Shown: piece by piece, positions 1,761-9,293 of the stretch
Numbering within the stretch: position 1 is the stretch's first letter
How the letters are laid out: each line of letters begins with the position of its first letter
Origin: Sneathiellales bacterium
GTDB lineage: Bacteria > Pseudomonadota > Alphaproteobacteria > JANQFL01
DNA: 36,557 bases
NCBI GenBank assembly: GCA_028277845.1
Contig: JANQFL010000008.1
Location: 1 to 36,557 of the forward strand
Reading direction: 5' to 3'
Program-made: the position numbers and the translations under genes
The notes under the pieces: generated by a model
Told to the model about the DNA's origin: nothing
Databases searched by the model: none
Seen by the model: only the letters and a program-made list of their open reading frames with translations

Positions 1761-2486
1761 ATGGGTTTCGGCACCATCATGATCATCTATCACTATTTCG
1801 GCCTCGGTTTCCTCGTTGCGGCCGCAGCGGGCAATCGCGACCGATTGCACCGGGCGCTGATCGGCGTCGCGATCCTGGCGGTGGTCGCCGCCATTTGTTA
1901 CCCGATTTACATGATGGGCGCGATCATTCCGTCACCACGTGCCCTTTTGGGCATCTGGCCCCTGCCCGCCATGGCCGGCATCGGCGCGCACTTCCTGATG
2001 AACAAGATCCCCGCCCTGCAGGATGAAAAGACGAAGCGCCGGGAGGCCAGGAAGGCGGCCAAACGGGCAACGGCACGAAACGACAAAGGTGAAAGCATCG
2101 AGCAGGCCGTGGCCCGCCTCGACAAGGCGTTGAAGACCGGCGACATGGACGGCGTGCTGGCCTGCTACGACGATGACGCGGTGGTCATGCTGGAATCCGG
2201 TAATATGGTACGCGGCAAGGCGCAATTGAAATCGGTGTTCAAACGCTTTCTCGGTTCGGGTCTGGCCTCGACCCGGCATCCCCAGGTGGTCGAGGCAGGC
2301 GACATGGCTCTGTTCGTTGCCCGCTGGAGTTCAGCCGGAAAATCCCACGACCACGAAGGCGGAACCGCACCTCCACCGACTTTCACAGCTACTTCCGTGT
2401 TCCGGCGCAGCCCTGATGAGACAGGTGCTTTGCGCTGGCGCTTGATGATCGACAACCCCTTCGGCCCAGGTACCCGGTCGGCATAG
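1761..2486 (+). CDS. Membrane-anchored NTF2/SnoaL-like protein
   Basis: The 241-residue protein has an N-terminal hydrophobic part with segments around residues 5-22 and 34-53 and a weaker third near 60-80. A charged linker rich in Lys/Arg/Glu/Ala follows (about 88-112). The C-terminal part (about 113-235) looks like an NTF2-fold DUF4440/SnoaL-type domain: an EQAVARLDKALKTGDMDGVLACYDDDAVV helix, a VRGKAQLKSVFKRFL helix, and beta-strand-like MALFVARW and LRWRLMIDNPF. Such domains bind small hydrophobic ligands or act as accessory domains, so no enzymatic role can be assigned. The start is supported by AGGAGG about seven bases before the ATG. It leads the apparent operon with the Lgt-like and radical SAM genes; the gap to the next gene is 64 bp and contains two short hairpins. 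Confidence 0.7.
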   Translation: MGFGTIMIIYHYFGLGFLVAAAAGNRDRLHRALIGVAILAVVAAICYPIYMMGAIIPSPRALLGIWPLPAMAGIGAHFLMNKIPALQDEKTKRREARKAAKRATARNDKGESIEQAVARLDKALKTGDMDGVLACYDDDAVVMLESGNMVRGKAQLKSVFKRFLGSGLASTRHPQVVEAGDMALFVARWSSAGKSHDHEGGTAPPPTFTATSVFRRSPDETGALRWRLMIDNPFGPGTRSA

Positions 2487-2533
2487 CGAGTAATCGCTCG
2501 CATAACGTGCCGCAATTTCGCCTAAAAGGCGAA
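2486..2533. other. Two short hairpins between NTF2-like and Lgt-like genes
   Basis: One inverted repeat pairs 2486-2490 with 2497-2501. A second has perfect 6-bp arms, TTCGCC at 2517-2522 and GGCGAA at 2528-2533, with loop TAAAA. No T-run follows, so an attenuating or mRNA-processing structure is as likely as a terminator. Confidence 0.3.
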
Positions 2534-2550
2534 CTATCAACGCGGCTGGA

Positions 2551-3249
2551 ATGGTTCATCTCCTATTCGATCTTCTCGCCTGGGCAGCCGCCATCGCGAC
2601 CGGTATCGCCGTCTGGCAATGGCGGCTCAAACAAACCGACACACATGCGCCCGTGCGACGAAGCACGGGATATTTGCTGGCGCTGGTCGCGGGCGCCATC
2701 ATCGGCGCGTTCGTTGTCGGCACCGCCAATATGCAACTGTCCGGTCATGACGGCGTCGGGCGCTCCATAATTGGCGCCCTTGCCGGGGCCATTGTCGCCG
2801 TCGAAGGCTACAAGGCCGCGACCGGAATTCGAGGAAGTACCGGCGTCTACTTTGCTGCGCCATTGGCTGTCGGCGTCGTGATTGGGCGGATCGGATGTTA
2901 TCTGGCCGGACTTGACGACTTTACGCACGGGTCTCCAACCACACTGCCGTGGGGTGTGGACTTTGGCGACGGCGTCGTGCGGCATCCGGTCCAGCTCTAC
3001 GAAGCCCTCGCCCTGGCGGCCTTCCTGTTCGCGTATCTGCTGGCCCTACGCAAGAATTGGCAGCCGGTCATGGCGTCGGGCTTTTATCTCGTCGTGGCGT
3101 GGTACGGCGCTCAGCGGTTCATCTGGGAGTTCATGAAGCCGTACGCCCTCGTCGCCGGCCCGTTCAATTTGTTTCACGTCCTCAGCGCGGCTCTGGTTGC
3201 GTACGGGTTGTGGATGATCTTCTTCAGGCAGAGACAAATCGGATCATGA
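2551..3249 (+). CDS. Lgt-like integral membrane protein (prolipoprotein diacylglyceryl transferase family), short divergent form
   Basis: The 232-residue polytopic protein has about six to seven hydrophobic segments. Two Lgt-family hallmarks are clear: GRIGCYLAGLDD near residues 111-122 and RHPVQLYEAL near 147-156 (Lgt: GR.GN...GE and PRHP.QLYEA). Classical Lgt moves the diacylglyceryl group of phosphatidylglycerol onto the lipobox cysteine of preprolipoproteins in the inner membrane. This protein is shorter than E. coli Lgt (291 residues). The region where Lgt carries its essential HGGL histidine reads SIIGALAGAIVAVEGYK, with no histidine. I therefore call it a paralogous family and not the housekeeping enzyme. 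Its stop overlaps the start of the radical SAM gene (ATGA), which suggests translational coupling. The ATG at 2551 has only a weak ribosome-binding site. Confidence 0.75.
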   Translation: MVHLLFDLLAWAAAIATGIAVWQWRLKQTDTHAPVRRSTGYLLALVAGAIIGAFVVGTANMQLSGHDGVGRSIIGALAGAIVAVEGYKAATGIRGSTGVYFAAPLAVGVVIGRIGCYLAGLDDFTHGSPTTLPWGVDFGDGVVRHPVQLYEALALAAFLFAYLLALRKNWQPVMASGFYLVVAWYGAQRFIWEFMKPYALVAGPFNLFHVLSAALVAYGLWMIFFRQRQIGS

Positions 3250-4730
3250 GCGATCAATCACCCGATATGCATTCCCCGCAGACCATCCGGAAACAGGCAC
3301 CGTATATTTTCTACGGTCAGACGACAGCATTGTGCGGCGCGTGCCTCATGCCGGTTCCCGCAAAGATCATCATCGAGGGAGGCGACGTTTTTCACCTCAA
3401 GCGGTGCACCCGACACGGCGTGCAAAAAGTGAAAATCTCCAGTGACGCCGCGTACTTCAAACAGTGCAAGGACTACTTGAAGCCCGGCGACCGGCCGCTA
3501 CGTGTTCAGACCCGAACCGAATACGGCTGCCCGTTGGACTGCGGGCTGTGTCCGGATCACGAGCAGCATTCGTGTCTCGCCTTGGTCGAAATCAACGAGG
3601 CGTGCAACCTCAATTGTCCGGTGTGTTTCGCTGACTCCTCGACAAGCAAGACCAGCCATCGGCCACTGGAAGATATCGAGGCCATGTTGGATGCGCTGGT
3701 AGCCAGTGAAGGCGAGCCGGATCTGGTGCAGATCTCCGGTGGAGAACCGACGATCCACCCGCAGTTCTTTGACGTTCTCGATGCCGCGAAACGCCGGTCG
3801 ATCCGACATCTGATGGTCAACACCAACGGTATCCGCATAGCCAAGGATCCGGCATTCGCCGAACGGCTCGCCAGGTACGTGCCACGCTTCGAAGTCTATC
3901 TGCAGTTCGACAGCCTGCAGCGCGACGCACTGATGGACTTGCGCGGTGCCGATCTGCGTGAAGTGCGCCTGCAGGCACTGCGTCGGTTGGAGGAACTTGG
4001 CATTTCCACGACACTCGTGGTGACTGTGAAGCGAAGCGTCAACGACGACGAAATCGGCGACATTGTGAAATTCGCGCTGGAATACGACTGCGTGCGCGGT
4101 GTCACGTTCCAGACCATCCAGGACGCCGGACGAAACGAGGGCTTTGCGCCGCCGGAAAACCGCATGCTGTTGAGCGATGTGCGCAAGGCGGTGATCGCCG
4201 ATTCCGGCGTGTTCGGAGCCGACGACCTGATGCCCCTGCCCTGTCACCCGGAACAGATCTGCATCGGCTACGGTCTGCGCAAGGGCACATCGGTCACGCC
4301 GCTTCTGTCTCTGCTGCCCAAAGACCTGCTGCTCGACGCCGCCCCGAACACCATCGCCTTCGAAAGTTTTCCGGCGCTCAGGGAAGCAGTATTCGATCTT
4401 CTGTCGCTGTCGACCGCGGCGTCCGATTCGGCCGATAGGCTGGGCCAGGTACTGTGCTGCCTGCCCCAGGCGGCGATTCCCGAAACCATCACCTACGCCG
4501 ATACCTTTCGTATCGTCATTCTTGAATTCATGGACCGTCACAACTTCGACGTCGGCGGCGTCAAGCGCTCGTGCATGCACTTCGTCCAACCGGACGGCCG
4601 CATCATTCCGTTCGACACCTTCAACCTGTTCTACCGCGACGGCCAGGTGGAGAACCTGCGGCAACGGTTGCGGCCGGACACGACGGACCAGCGCCATGTT
4701 CGAAGGGGGCAAGCATCACTGGAGGAGTAA
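3246..4730 (+). CDS. Radical SAM protein of the MJ0619 / tetraether lipid synthase (Tes)-like family
   Basis: The 494-residue protein has an N-terminal cysteine module (Cys30, Cys33, Cys54 in ALCGAC...KRC.RHG). A second cluster, GCPLDCGLCPDHEQHSC, covers residues 94-110 (Cys95, 99, 102, 110). The radical SAM motif CNLNCPVC is at 120-127 (Cys120, 124, 127 for the 4Fe-4S cluster that cleaves SAM). A QISGGEPTIHP glycine-rich motif follows. Near the C-terminus are PLPCHPEQIC and RSCMHFVQPDGRIIPFD. This pattern matches the archaeal MJ0619 family, whose members include enzymes that join two lipid tails by sp3 C-C bond formation to make tetraethers; bacterial homologues have been linked to membrane-spanning lipids. 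The exact reaction here is unknown. I chose the ATG at 3246 over longer in-frame starts because it overlaps the upstream stop as ATGA and begins where family similarity begins. Confidence 0.8.
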   Translation: MSDQSPDMHSPQTIRKQAPYIFYGQTTALCGACLMPVPAKIIIEGGDVFHLKRCTRHGVQKVKISSDAAYFKQCKDYLKPGDRPLRVQTRTEYGCPLDCGLCPDHEQHSCLALVEINEACNLNCPVCFADSSTSKTSHRPLEDIEAMLDALVASEGEPDLVQISGGEPTIHPQFFDVLDAAKRRSIRHLMVNTNGIRIAKDPAFAERLARYVPRFEVYLQFDSLQRDALMDLRGADLREVRLQALRRLEELGISTTLVVTVKRSVNDDEIGDIVKFALEYDCVRGVTFQTIQDAGRNEGFAPPENRMLLSDVRKAVIADSGVFGADDLMPLPCHPEQICIGYGLRKGTSVTPLLSLLPKDLLLDAAPNTIAFESFPALREAVFDLLSLSTAASDSADRLGQVLCCLPQAAIPETITYADTFRIVILEFMDRHNFDVGGVKRSCMHFVQPDGRIIPFDTFNLFYRDGQVENLRQRLRPDTTDQRHVRRGQASLEE

Positions 4731-4735
4731 CCGGC

Positions 4736-4951
4736 ATGGGGGAACAACAAGACGGTGGTTGGGGACCTGTCGTGGTCGCCCTGGGCACTTTGATCGCCGC
4801 GCTCTGCGGCGGATGCGGGCTGGCGTTCATCTTGTATGAAGGCGCCGCCTTCGGCGAATTCGGCATTGCCTCGGGCATGGCGATTTGGTTCGGCATTGTT
4901 CCCGGGGTTATCGGCCTTTTGATCCGTTGGGCCGGCAAGTCCATGAAGTAG
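4736..4951 (+). CDS. Tiny membrane protein with GGC motif (paralogue 1)
   Basis: The 71-residue protein has two hydrophobic segments, about residues 11-34 and 43-66, and ends in a short basic tail. The first segment runs into ALCGGCGLAF (Cys24, Cys27). It starts six bases after the radical SAM stop, with a strong GGAGGAG (4721-4727) before the ATG, so it belongs to the same transcript. It resembles the next gene in size, in the ALxGGC segment and in the later hydrophobic stretch, so the two look like a tandem duplication. I do not recognise the family. It could be an accessory subunit of the upstream enzymes or a substrate of the Lgt-like protein. Confidence 0.65.
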   Translation: MGEQQDGGWGPVVVALGTLIAALCGGCGLAFILYEGAAFGEFGIASGMAIWFGIVPGVIGLLIRWAGKSMK

Positions 4952-4977
4952 AAGATATAGCCGTGCCGTGCCCGAGA

Positions 4978-5202
4978 ATGAGTAGCGTAATGATCGCCAC
5001 CGGCGCTCTGGTTACTGCTTTGAGTGGTGGCTGCAGTATTGTGTTCGGCATCGATGCGGTTGGGTCGGCATGGCTGCTGTCACTGCCGTTTGGCGGCCTT
5101 CCGTTTCTGACCGGTCTTGCCCTGGTCTACTTCGGTTGGCGCGTGCGCAAACGATACGAGTCGCGCAACAGCGGCTCGCCCAGGACCGAAAACGAGGTTT
5201 AA
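4978..5202 (+). CDS. Tiny membrane protein with GGC motif (paralogue 2)
   Basis: The 74-residue protein has hydrophobic segments at about residues 4-26 and 31-52, followed by a basic, hydrophilic tail (WRVRKRYESRNSGS...). The first segment contains ALSGGCSIVF (Cys19), matching ALCGGCGLAF of the preceding gene. The ATG at 4978 is taken as the start; an in-frame GTG at 4963 would add five residues. It lies 26 bp after the previous stop and probably ends the operon. No known family was recognised. The predicted topology is two membrane spans with the tail on one face. Confidence 0.55.
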   Translation: MSSVMIATGALVTALSGGCSIVFGIDAVGSAWLLSLPFGGLPFLTGLALVYFGWRVRKRYESRNSGSPRTENEV

Positions 5203-5337: not shown

Positions 5338-5808
5338 ATGATGAAAATGCTAATGCGACGGTCCGGTTTCGCTACTGTTGTGGCAGCCGTACTGCTAATT
5401 CCACTCTTCGCCGCGCCGGCTTTGGCCAAGGATGCGGTCTATACTGGCACGTTCAGTAGCCTGGCGATCAGCGGCTACGACCCGGTGGCCTATTTCACCC
5501 AGGGTATGCCGGTGAAGGGCAAGAGCGCCCTGGAGCTGGACTATATGGGTGCCACCTGGCGCTTTGCCAGCAAGGCGAATTTGGAAGCCTTCAAGGACAT
5601 GCCGGAGAAATACGCGCCGCAGTACGGCGGGTATTGTGCCTGGGCGGTTTCGCAGGGTTATACGGCATCGACCATACCGGAGGCCTGGAAAATCGTCGAC
5701 GGCAAGCTTTACCTGAATTATTCGAAAGGCGTGCAGGCGACCTGGGAAAAGGACATTCCCGGCAATATCACCAAGGCCGACGGCCACTGGCCGAAGGTCT
5801 TGAATTGA
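5338..5808 (+). CDS. Exported YHS-domain protein
   Basis: The 156-residue precursor starts MMKMLMRRSG and carries a classical signal peptide with a hydrophobic core and an APALA cleavage region near residues 27-31. The mature part has the proteobacterial periplasmic YHS-domain signature: LAISGYDPVAYFTQG, then a YMGATWRFAS strand, then YAPQYGGYCAWAVSQGYTA, and IVDGKLYLNYSKGVQATWEKDI near the C-terminus. Some relatives are annotated as YHS selenoproteins; here the conserved GGYC position is an ordinary cysteine. YHS domains are often linked to metal handling, but the role of this subfamily is unknown. A GGGAG five bases before 5338 favours this ATG, with the next codon also ATG. It is monocistronic and convergent with the cyclase at 5918. 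Confidence 0.8.
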   Translation: MMKMLMRRSGFATVVAAVLLIPLFAAPALAKDAVYTGTFSSLAISGYDPVAYFTQGMPVKGKSALELDYMGATWRFASKANLEAFKDMPEKYAPQYGGYCAWAVSQGYTASTIPEAWKIVDGKLYLNYSKGVQATWEKDIPGNITKADGHWPKVLN

Positions 5809-8552: not shown

Positions 8553-9293
8553 ATGGAGACAGCCGTGTATTGCACTCACGGACGGTGGAGTTTGGCCGGA
8601 ATCAATCGAATAGCCCGGAGGGCCGCAACGATCGCAGCCATCGTAGCCTTCCAGGTTCTCCCGCAGCCGGTATCCGCCGTCCCGGTGGACTGGTCAGACA
8701 GCATATTGTTTCAAGCCCGGGGCGGACTGGAAAATCCACTTGTCGCCGTCGCCTTCAATCCGCAGCCCGAACCGCCGGCCTATGGCGGCACACAAACGTC
8801 GCAGGAGAACGGCGTCGCGGTCATGACGGCGCCGAATGTTGACAATCCACAAATGTTCCAACTGTTGCTTTCCATTAACCTCGGATCAGCCGCCGGCGGC
8901 CCGCAAAACGCCAATGTCTTCTATCCGCCGGATCCGATCGCGCCATTCCCATCCCTGCAGTATTCCATCGCAACGTCGCTCGGAACGGTCCTGGTCGATT
9001 TGGACTTCTCGACTTCGTCCGGTGGTATCGGATCCGATGTCGATGCGGTGGCCTTTAATCCGCAACCCGAACCGCCGGCTTTCTCGTCCGGTCAATCGTC
9101 CAGCTTCGGTTTGGAATTCGCCTTCACGGCTCTGTCGGACGCCACCGTGCGCATTGGTCTGACACTGGAAAACGGCGAGCAACTCCACCTGACCCAGGTG
9201 CCTGAACCCGCAGCCCTGGTCCTTTTCACCGCAGGTCTGGTGTTTGTGGCCATGTCGCGCCGCAAAAACGCGACTGGGGCGCAGTCGTCCTGA
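8553..9293 (+). CDS. PEP-CTERM protein with duplicated VAFNPQPEPPA motif
   Basis: The 246-residue exported protein has a signal peptide at about residues 18-43 (ARRAATIAAIVAFQVLPQPVSA). The C-terminal sorting signal VPEPAALVLFTAGLVFVAMSRRK covers 216-238: a PEP motif, a hydrophobic helix and a basic tail. PEP-CTERM signals are processed by exosortase in exopolysaccharide-producing Gram-negative bacteria. The mature part has two exact copies of AVAFNPQPEPPA (residues 65-76 and 165-176), exactly 100 residues apart. The similar DNA (8745-8780 and 9045-9080) points to an internal duplication of a roughly 100-residue unit. The function is unknown; it is presumably a surface or matrix protein. The ATG at 8553 is accepted on the basis of the signal peptide. 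Its stop lies two bases before the convergent TetR gene's stop codon. Confidence 0.8.
   Translation: METAVYCTHGRWSLAGINRIARRAATIAAIVAFQVLPQPVSAVPVDWSDSILFQARGGLENPLVAVAFNPQPEPPAYGGTQTSQENGVAVMTAPNVDNPQMFQLLLSINLGSAAGGPQNANVFYPPDPIAPFPSLQYSIATSLGTVLVDLDFSTSSGGIGSDVDAVAFNPQPEPPAFSSGQSSSFGLEFAFTALSDATVRIGLTLENGEQLHLTQVPEPAALVLFTAGLVFVAMSRRKNATGAQSS

Follow-up and report, generated by a model that had tools for sequence, protein, structure and literature searches.

The locus studied here raises the question of what a bacterium makes with an Lgt-like membrane protein and a radical SAM protein resembling archaeal Tes (GDGT-MAS), encoded side by side in a window of 36,557 nucleotides (the whole stretch of DNA that was analysed). 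The host genome is 5.39 Mb in size and 98% complete, and is the sole representative of its order in the compared set. A first-pass annotation had read the pair as a possible source of either an unusual lipid or a doubly modified lipoprotein. Its gene coordinates were reproduced, as was the ATGA overlap, with the start of the radical SAM gene (from 3246) overlapping the stop of the Lgt-like gene (to 3249). The membrane protein it placed ahead of the pair does contain an NTF2-like domain, and two tiny membrane proteins follow as it described. The features discussed below are:

356-1627: glycosyltransferase, beside the Lgt-like/radical SAM locus
1761-2486, plus strand: membrane protein with a SnoaL/DUF4440 (NTF2-like) domain, by domain match
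2551-3249, plus strand: Lgt-like integral membrane protein, 232 aa, 7 helices, by Pfam LGT and fold
3246-4730, plus strand: radical SAM protein of the Tes/GDGT-MAS fold, 494 aa, by sequence and fold
3333-3416, plus strand: rubredoxin-type site C30, C33, C54, H57, in 69/69 members of the bacterial clade (His in 68/69) and in 19/19 archaeal Tes
3528-3560, plus strand: N-terminal auxiliary [4Fe-4S] motif C95-x3-C99-x2-C102-x2-H105, in 69/69 members of the clade
3603-3626, plus strand: radical SAM cluster motif C120-x3-C124-x2-C127, in 69/69 members of the clade
4242-4574, plus strand: clade-specific C-terminal cysteines C333 (4242-4244), C404/C405 (4455-4460) and C443 (4572-4574)
4736-4951, plus strand: tiny two-helix membrane protein 1, 71 aa, with lipobox-like ALCGGC, C27 at 4814-4816
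4978-5202, plus strand: tiny two-helix membrane protein 2, 74 aa, with lipobox-like ALSGGC, C19 at 5032-5034

The resemblance of the radical SAM protein to Tes is borne out by both sequence and fold. Using phmmer, it matched MJ0619, the M. jannaschii GDGT-MAS of PDB entries 7TOL and 7TOM, with an E-value of 2.6e-61 over two stretches (25-333 and 421-467), and its AlphaFold2 model (mean pLDDT 83.5, with residues 383-413 of low confidence) superimposed on 7TOM with a Z-score of 46.1 over 425 residues at an rmsd of 2.6 Å, showing that the Tes fold extends over the whole length; the second-best structure scored 19.5. Membership in the Tes family is another matter. The best NCBIfam score was 290.4 bits for TrsS (NF045646), short of its cut-off of 490, and the Tes model NF045702 gave 265.7 bits against a cut-off of 450. 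In a tree of 110 relatives, built by a quick method with SH-aLRT support and drawn with a midpoint root, the protein falls into a 69-member bacterial clade with a support of 100, and the 19 archaeal proteins, which score above the Tes cut-off or group with proteins that do, form another group; the tool warned of several long branches, which lie outside both of these groups.

The metal sites separate the two groups further. Three of the four Tes sites are kept in the bacterial clade, namely the rubredoxin, N-auxiliary and SAM-cluster motifs. At the fourth, the equivalent of Tes C455 is Ser in 62/69 members (S, T, A or E overall), that of C470 is Asp or Glu in 68/69 (D, E or S overall), and that of Tyr459 is Ile, Phe or Met. 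Tes numbering follows PMC9433317; from Met439 and Tyr459 we counted residues in the alignment to locate C455 and C470. As both cysteines are conserved in archaeal Tes, they probably act there, with Met439, as ligands of the C-terminal cluster. The bacterial clade instead has its own nearly invariant set, C333 (69/69), C404 (67/69), C405 (69/69) and C443 (69/69), which would be expected to hold a [4Fe-4S] cluster; C110 is likewise invariant among the 69. TrsS-like relatives have C333, C404, C443 and mostly C110 as well, but they lack C405 and retain the Tes-type CC and PFC cysteines. Because the protein belongs to a separate clade with its own invariant cysteines in place of the Tes ligands of the C-terminal cluster, it is not Tes. 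Since the replaced ligands bear on C-C bond formation in Tes, a radical reaction other than C-C coupling is possible.

A plain bacterial Tes that makes brGDGT-type lipids, with neighbours that are incidental, is therefore quite improbable. Such a reading can point to the fold, to the three retained metal sites, and to the brGDGT role that has been proposed for bacterial Tes homologues (PMC8941075), but the clade is separate from archaeal Tes, the ligand set of the C-terminal cluster differs in 69/69 members along with the loss of Tyr459, and the gene is strongly linked to its Lgt-like and tiny neighbours. Another known enzyme that couples lipid tails is Mss, a membrane-spanning lipid synthase of anaerobic bacteria, which is said to share the Tes architecture (PMC13274423).

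That linkage was examined in a contig scan for relatives of the radical SAM protein, which returned 79. The sample of related loci was drawn with patterns taken from the protein in the window, and it therefore favours near relatives. Of the 72 loci of the clade, 69 have an Lgt-like gene no more than 5 kb away, far above chance, so the survey for conserved pairing that the first-pass annotation had proposed came out in its favour. The gene is directly upstream in 51 of these, further upstream on the same strand in 14 and elsewhere in 4, and two of the three loci without it are on truncated contigs. Archaeal Tes loci examined had neither Lgt-like nor tiny membrane genes, unlike the loci of the bacterial clade. 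The clade spans at least seven phyla (Pseudomonadota, Bacillota, Bacteroidota, Ignavibacteriota, Acidobacteriota, Cyanobacteriota/Melainabacteria and Campylobacterota), with a further locus (L128) in a genome from a Chloroflexota sample, and cultured genera carrying the module include Bradyrhizobium, Paenibacillus, Neobacillus and Aquimarina. More divergent Lgt neighbours occur beyond the clade in Mycobacterium, Moraniibacteriota, small-genome Alphaproteobacteria and some Chloroflexota.

Distances among the Lgt-like proteins track those among the radical SAM proteins (r = 0.935, with 0 of 2000 permutations as high), and we conclude that the pair is conserved across phyla and co-inherited. The Sulfuricurvum (Campylobacterota) copies have their nearest relatives in Alphaproteobacteria for both genes, suggesting that the two were transferred together. 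Within the class of the host, distribution is patchy: the radical SAM clade was found in 3 of 385 genomes, and an intact close Lgt-like gene was found only in the same three. A fourth genome of the class carries a frame-disrupted Lgt-like remnant (L136; G325:C68) with no radical SAM gene, as if the module were being lost there. Two alphaproteobacterial genomes of 1.2-1.5 Mb (L005 and L006) hold a very divergent version of the module, ordered as radical SAM gene, two tiny membrane proteins and Lgt-like gene; the motifs of the two tiny proteins in L005 are AGTC and FGTC.

The glycosyltransferase at 356-1627 had been taken as adding to a lipid theme, and the NTF2-like gene had been noted as preceding the pair. 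Nothing like the former recurs among the conserved neighbours of related loci and the latter has a counterpart in none of the other loci of radical SAM relatives, so both were rejected as members of the module.

The assignment of the Lgt-like protein to the Lgt family was confirmed, with 73.6 bits against a Pfam LGT gathering cut-off of 24.9. Its model (pLDDT 93) matched E. coli Lgt (5AZB) with a Z-score of 13.5 over 213 residues, the next entry scoring 6.4; 5AZB was missed by Foldseek alone and was found by a second structure search. A profile built from 38 sequences (37 Lgt-like proteins and the host's canonical Lgt) also recovered E. coli Lgt at 9e-31. Aligned to E. coli Lgt, the protein keeps R113 (R143), Y185 (Y235), R189 (R239) and E193 (E243) and has K196 at R246. 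Across the subfamily of 72, R143 is kept in 68, Y235 and R239 in all, E243 as E or D in all and R246 as K or R in all. In E. coli Lgt, mutants of R143, R239, E243, R246 and H103 are inactive, and Thr is the sole tolerated substitution at Y235, with partial activity (PMC4728403). Other positions are replaced: I74 stands at H103, C116 at N146 (Cys in 71/72) and a His at Y26, and the HGGL histidine (H103) is present in 0/72. From these alignments the donor side, which handles phosphatidylglycerol, looks kept and the acceptor side looks changed. The loss of His103 and the exchange of Asn146 for Cys fit an acceptor other than an ordinary prolipoprotein.

It is very improbable that the protein is simply a second ordinary prolipoprotein lipidase. 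The Pfam match and the fold would allow it, but the HGGL histidine is missing throughout the subfamily, the score on TIGR00544 is 32.7 bits, well below the cut-off of 118.9, and a canonical Lgt with HGGL (264 bits) is encoded elsewhere in the host genome, making the present copy an extra one. The same histidine bears on our own reading: as His103 is essential in E. coli Lgt (PMC4728403) and missing in 72/72, diacylglyceryl transfer to a thiol is not assured, and this is the chief weak point of the lipid-transfer reading.

The tiny membrane proteins, with two to four helices, are a third component of the module, newly recognized here. In 49 of 71 clade loci the gene that directly follows the radical SAM gene encodes such a protein, as opposed to 1 of 34 Tes/TrsS-like loci (Fisher p 2e-11), and TrsS-like loci have no tiny Cys protein in that position. 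In 14 of the remaining clade loci a tiny protein is found elsewhere nearby, notably in Betaproteobacteria, in which it comes ahead of the radical SAM gene; since a Cys filter was used to pick these 14, they were kept out of the shuffle statistics. In the other 8 of the 71 (L019, L022, L025, L058, L059, L061, L063 and L067), a tiny Cys protein was not found. Where present, there are one to three of these genes per locus, alike mainly in their Cys motif. They had no Pfam match above cut-off and no NCBIfam match, and Phage_holin_3_6 gave a weak match below cut-off.

For the shuffle test we used 22 representatives sharing less than 40% identity and not selected for Cys. The motif [GAST]-x-C is present in 20 of the 22, against a shuffled mean of 10.1, and in 18 the Cys lies 16-21 residues past the last upstream charge or the N-terminus (null mean 6.9; 0 of 10000 shuffles as high). 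In a wider set, 23 of 32 have a net positive flank before the Cys helix, and by the positive-inside rule the Cys is predicted at the outer face, where Lgt works. Most of the tiny proteins, though not all, thus have a helix flanked by basic residues on the inside and, where it reaches the outer face, a Cys preceded by small residues. The arrangement is like that of a bacterial lipobox in its basic inner flank, its run of about 17-20 uncharged residues and its Cys after small residues, and is unlike it in having a free -1 residue, a hydrophobic stretch past the Cys and a motif that is often in the last helix. As the -1 residue is often other than A, G or S, most of these motifs are not canonical lipoboxes. 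The motif sits in the last helix in Bacillota (ACFG) and Bacteroidota (GICG) and mostly in the first in Alphaproteobacteria, and because the Cys helix differs among phyla, we read the recurrence as one of geometry rather than as demonstrated common descent. Being divergent, present in one to three copies and having mainly one exposed Cys in common, the tiny proteins look like acceptors rather than structural partners.

Small, divergent proteins with one residue motif in common also resemble precursors, and the module could be a RiPP-like system in which the radical SAM enzyme alters the tiny protein itself, to which the Lgt-like enzyme adds a lipid or on which it uses one. The peptide modifiers SkfB, SuiB and anSME are indeed among the Foldseek matches that rank after Tes. 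We find this reading unlikely: those matches are confined to the core shared by radical SAM enzymes, spanning about 215-260 residues with Z-scores of at most 19.5 as compared to 46.1 for Tes, the Cys is predicted outside and away from a cytoplasmic enzyme, and in the alphaproteobacterial tiny set (mean identity 27%) no conserved residue stands out beyond the near-invariant Cys and one Gly.

Since the pair is conserved and co-inherited and both members have lipid-handling folds, the product is most naturally taken to be a lipid or a lipoprotein, and the gene set probably attaches or builds an unusual lipid. The earlier proposal of an unusual lipid or doubly modified lipoprotein thus stands as regards the conserved pair and the folds, and falls short by one of the refuting conditions it set for itself, as the radical SAM protein is placed outside the archaeal Tes clade; of its two alternatives, the tiny Cys-bearing proteins favour the lipoprotein. 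We put a probability of about 0.37 on a three-component bacterial module for membrane lipidation, made up of Cys acceptors, an Lgt-like transferase and a Tes-like enzyme that modifies lipid tails. From the gene linkage, the folds, the residues kept and lost and the position of the Cys, all of which are observed, we infer the following chemical steps and their order. The acceptors would be the tiny membrane proteins, each offering one Cys at an extracytoplasmic helix end within a relaxed lipobox, [G/A/S/T]-x-C. The Lgt-like enzyme would hold phosphatidylglycerol by the two arginines that Lgt also has, and move the diacylglyceryl group to this Cys, which is the simplest account of an Lgt fold that keeps the phosphatidylglycerol-side residues next to acceptor-like proteins. 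On the cytoplasmic side, the radical SAM enzyme would take a hydrogen from a lipid-tail carbon, and tails would be joined or otherwise modified; such a step on lipid tails is suggested by the Tes fold and by a crystal of GDGT-MAS with bacterial phosphatidic acid in its hydrophobic pockets (PMC9433317). The tails could be modified while still on phosphatidylglycerol or once they have been transferred to the protein. Weighing against this scheme, a cytoplasmic radical SAM enzyme together with a Cys or Lgt site that faces outward would require lipid to move across the membrane. The product would be a protein bearing a macrocyclic, cross-linked or membrane-spanning lipid. A narrower version is, in our view, doubtful: the tiny multi-helix proteins would be a new class of bacterial lipoprotein, lipidated at a relaxed lipobox by a dedicated Lgt paralogue and bearing a radical-coupled (macrocyclic or membrane-spanning) lipid that a Tes-fold radical SAM enzyme with a re-engineered C-terminal Fe-S cluster produces.

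The product might instead be a free lipid, with the radical SAM enzyme coupling or modifying phospholipid tails (a bacterial tetraester, for example), the Lgt-like enzyme swapping a glyceryl or head group, and the tiny proteins serving as scaffolds or membrane anchors whose Cys is structural or redox-active. We regard this as a tentative but real possibility, given that the match to the GDGT-MAS fold runs over the whole length, that it is bacterial phosphatidic acid that sits in the GDGT-MAS pockets (PMC9433317), and that a part in brGDGT synthesis has been proposed for Tes homologues of bacteria (PMC8941075). Apart from their Cys motif and position, however, the tiny proteins are too divergent for a plain scaffold. 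Several carriers also belong to genera (Neobacillus, Paenibacillus, Aquimarina and Bradyrhizobium) that are not known for membrane-spanning lipids.

Known Tes homologues in bacteria number in the hundreds, and they have been cited as possible makers of the brGDGT lipids used as climate proxies (PMC8941075, PMC11868695). In the collection of open-access papers searched, no account turned up that links them to Lgt-like and tiny Cys genes, though accounts elsewhere are possible, and open-access papers naming both a diacylglyceryl transferase and a radical SAM enzyme do not, by their titles and abstracts, treat the two as a pair. The present analysis splits a large bacterial clade from Tes on the basis of its place in the tree, its cluster ligands and its neighbouring genes, and we argue that genome-based inference of lipid producers should not treat its members as Tes. 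It also gives a subfamily of Lgt paralogues and a set of tiny proteins a common context, and offers an alternative that is testable in the four cultured genera named above.

Several other genes near these loci are worth recording. In three TrsS-like loci (L071, L075 and L077), where an Lgt-like gene was not found, the radical SAM gene is followed by a methyltransferase-like gene whose start region carries CCAxFY. A similar glycosyltransferase-like protein with the motif MGYGHQRA adjoins the module in one Ignavibacteria and one Kapaibacterium genome (L039 and L043), and two betaproteobacterial loci have a large lysophospholipid-transporter-like gene upstream of the Lgt-like gene (L048:300-2276 and L073:619-2739). 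Just 3′ of the tiny genes in the window, on the same strand, is a gene for a small exported protein resembling a YHS-domain protein (5341-5808). Further along, the exported protein at 8553-9293 contains AFNPQPEPPA twice and ends in a hydrophobic tail resembling a PEP-CTERM sorting signal (VPEPAALVLFTAGLVFVAMSRRK).
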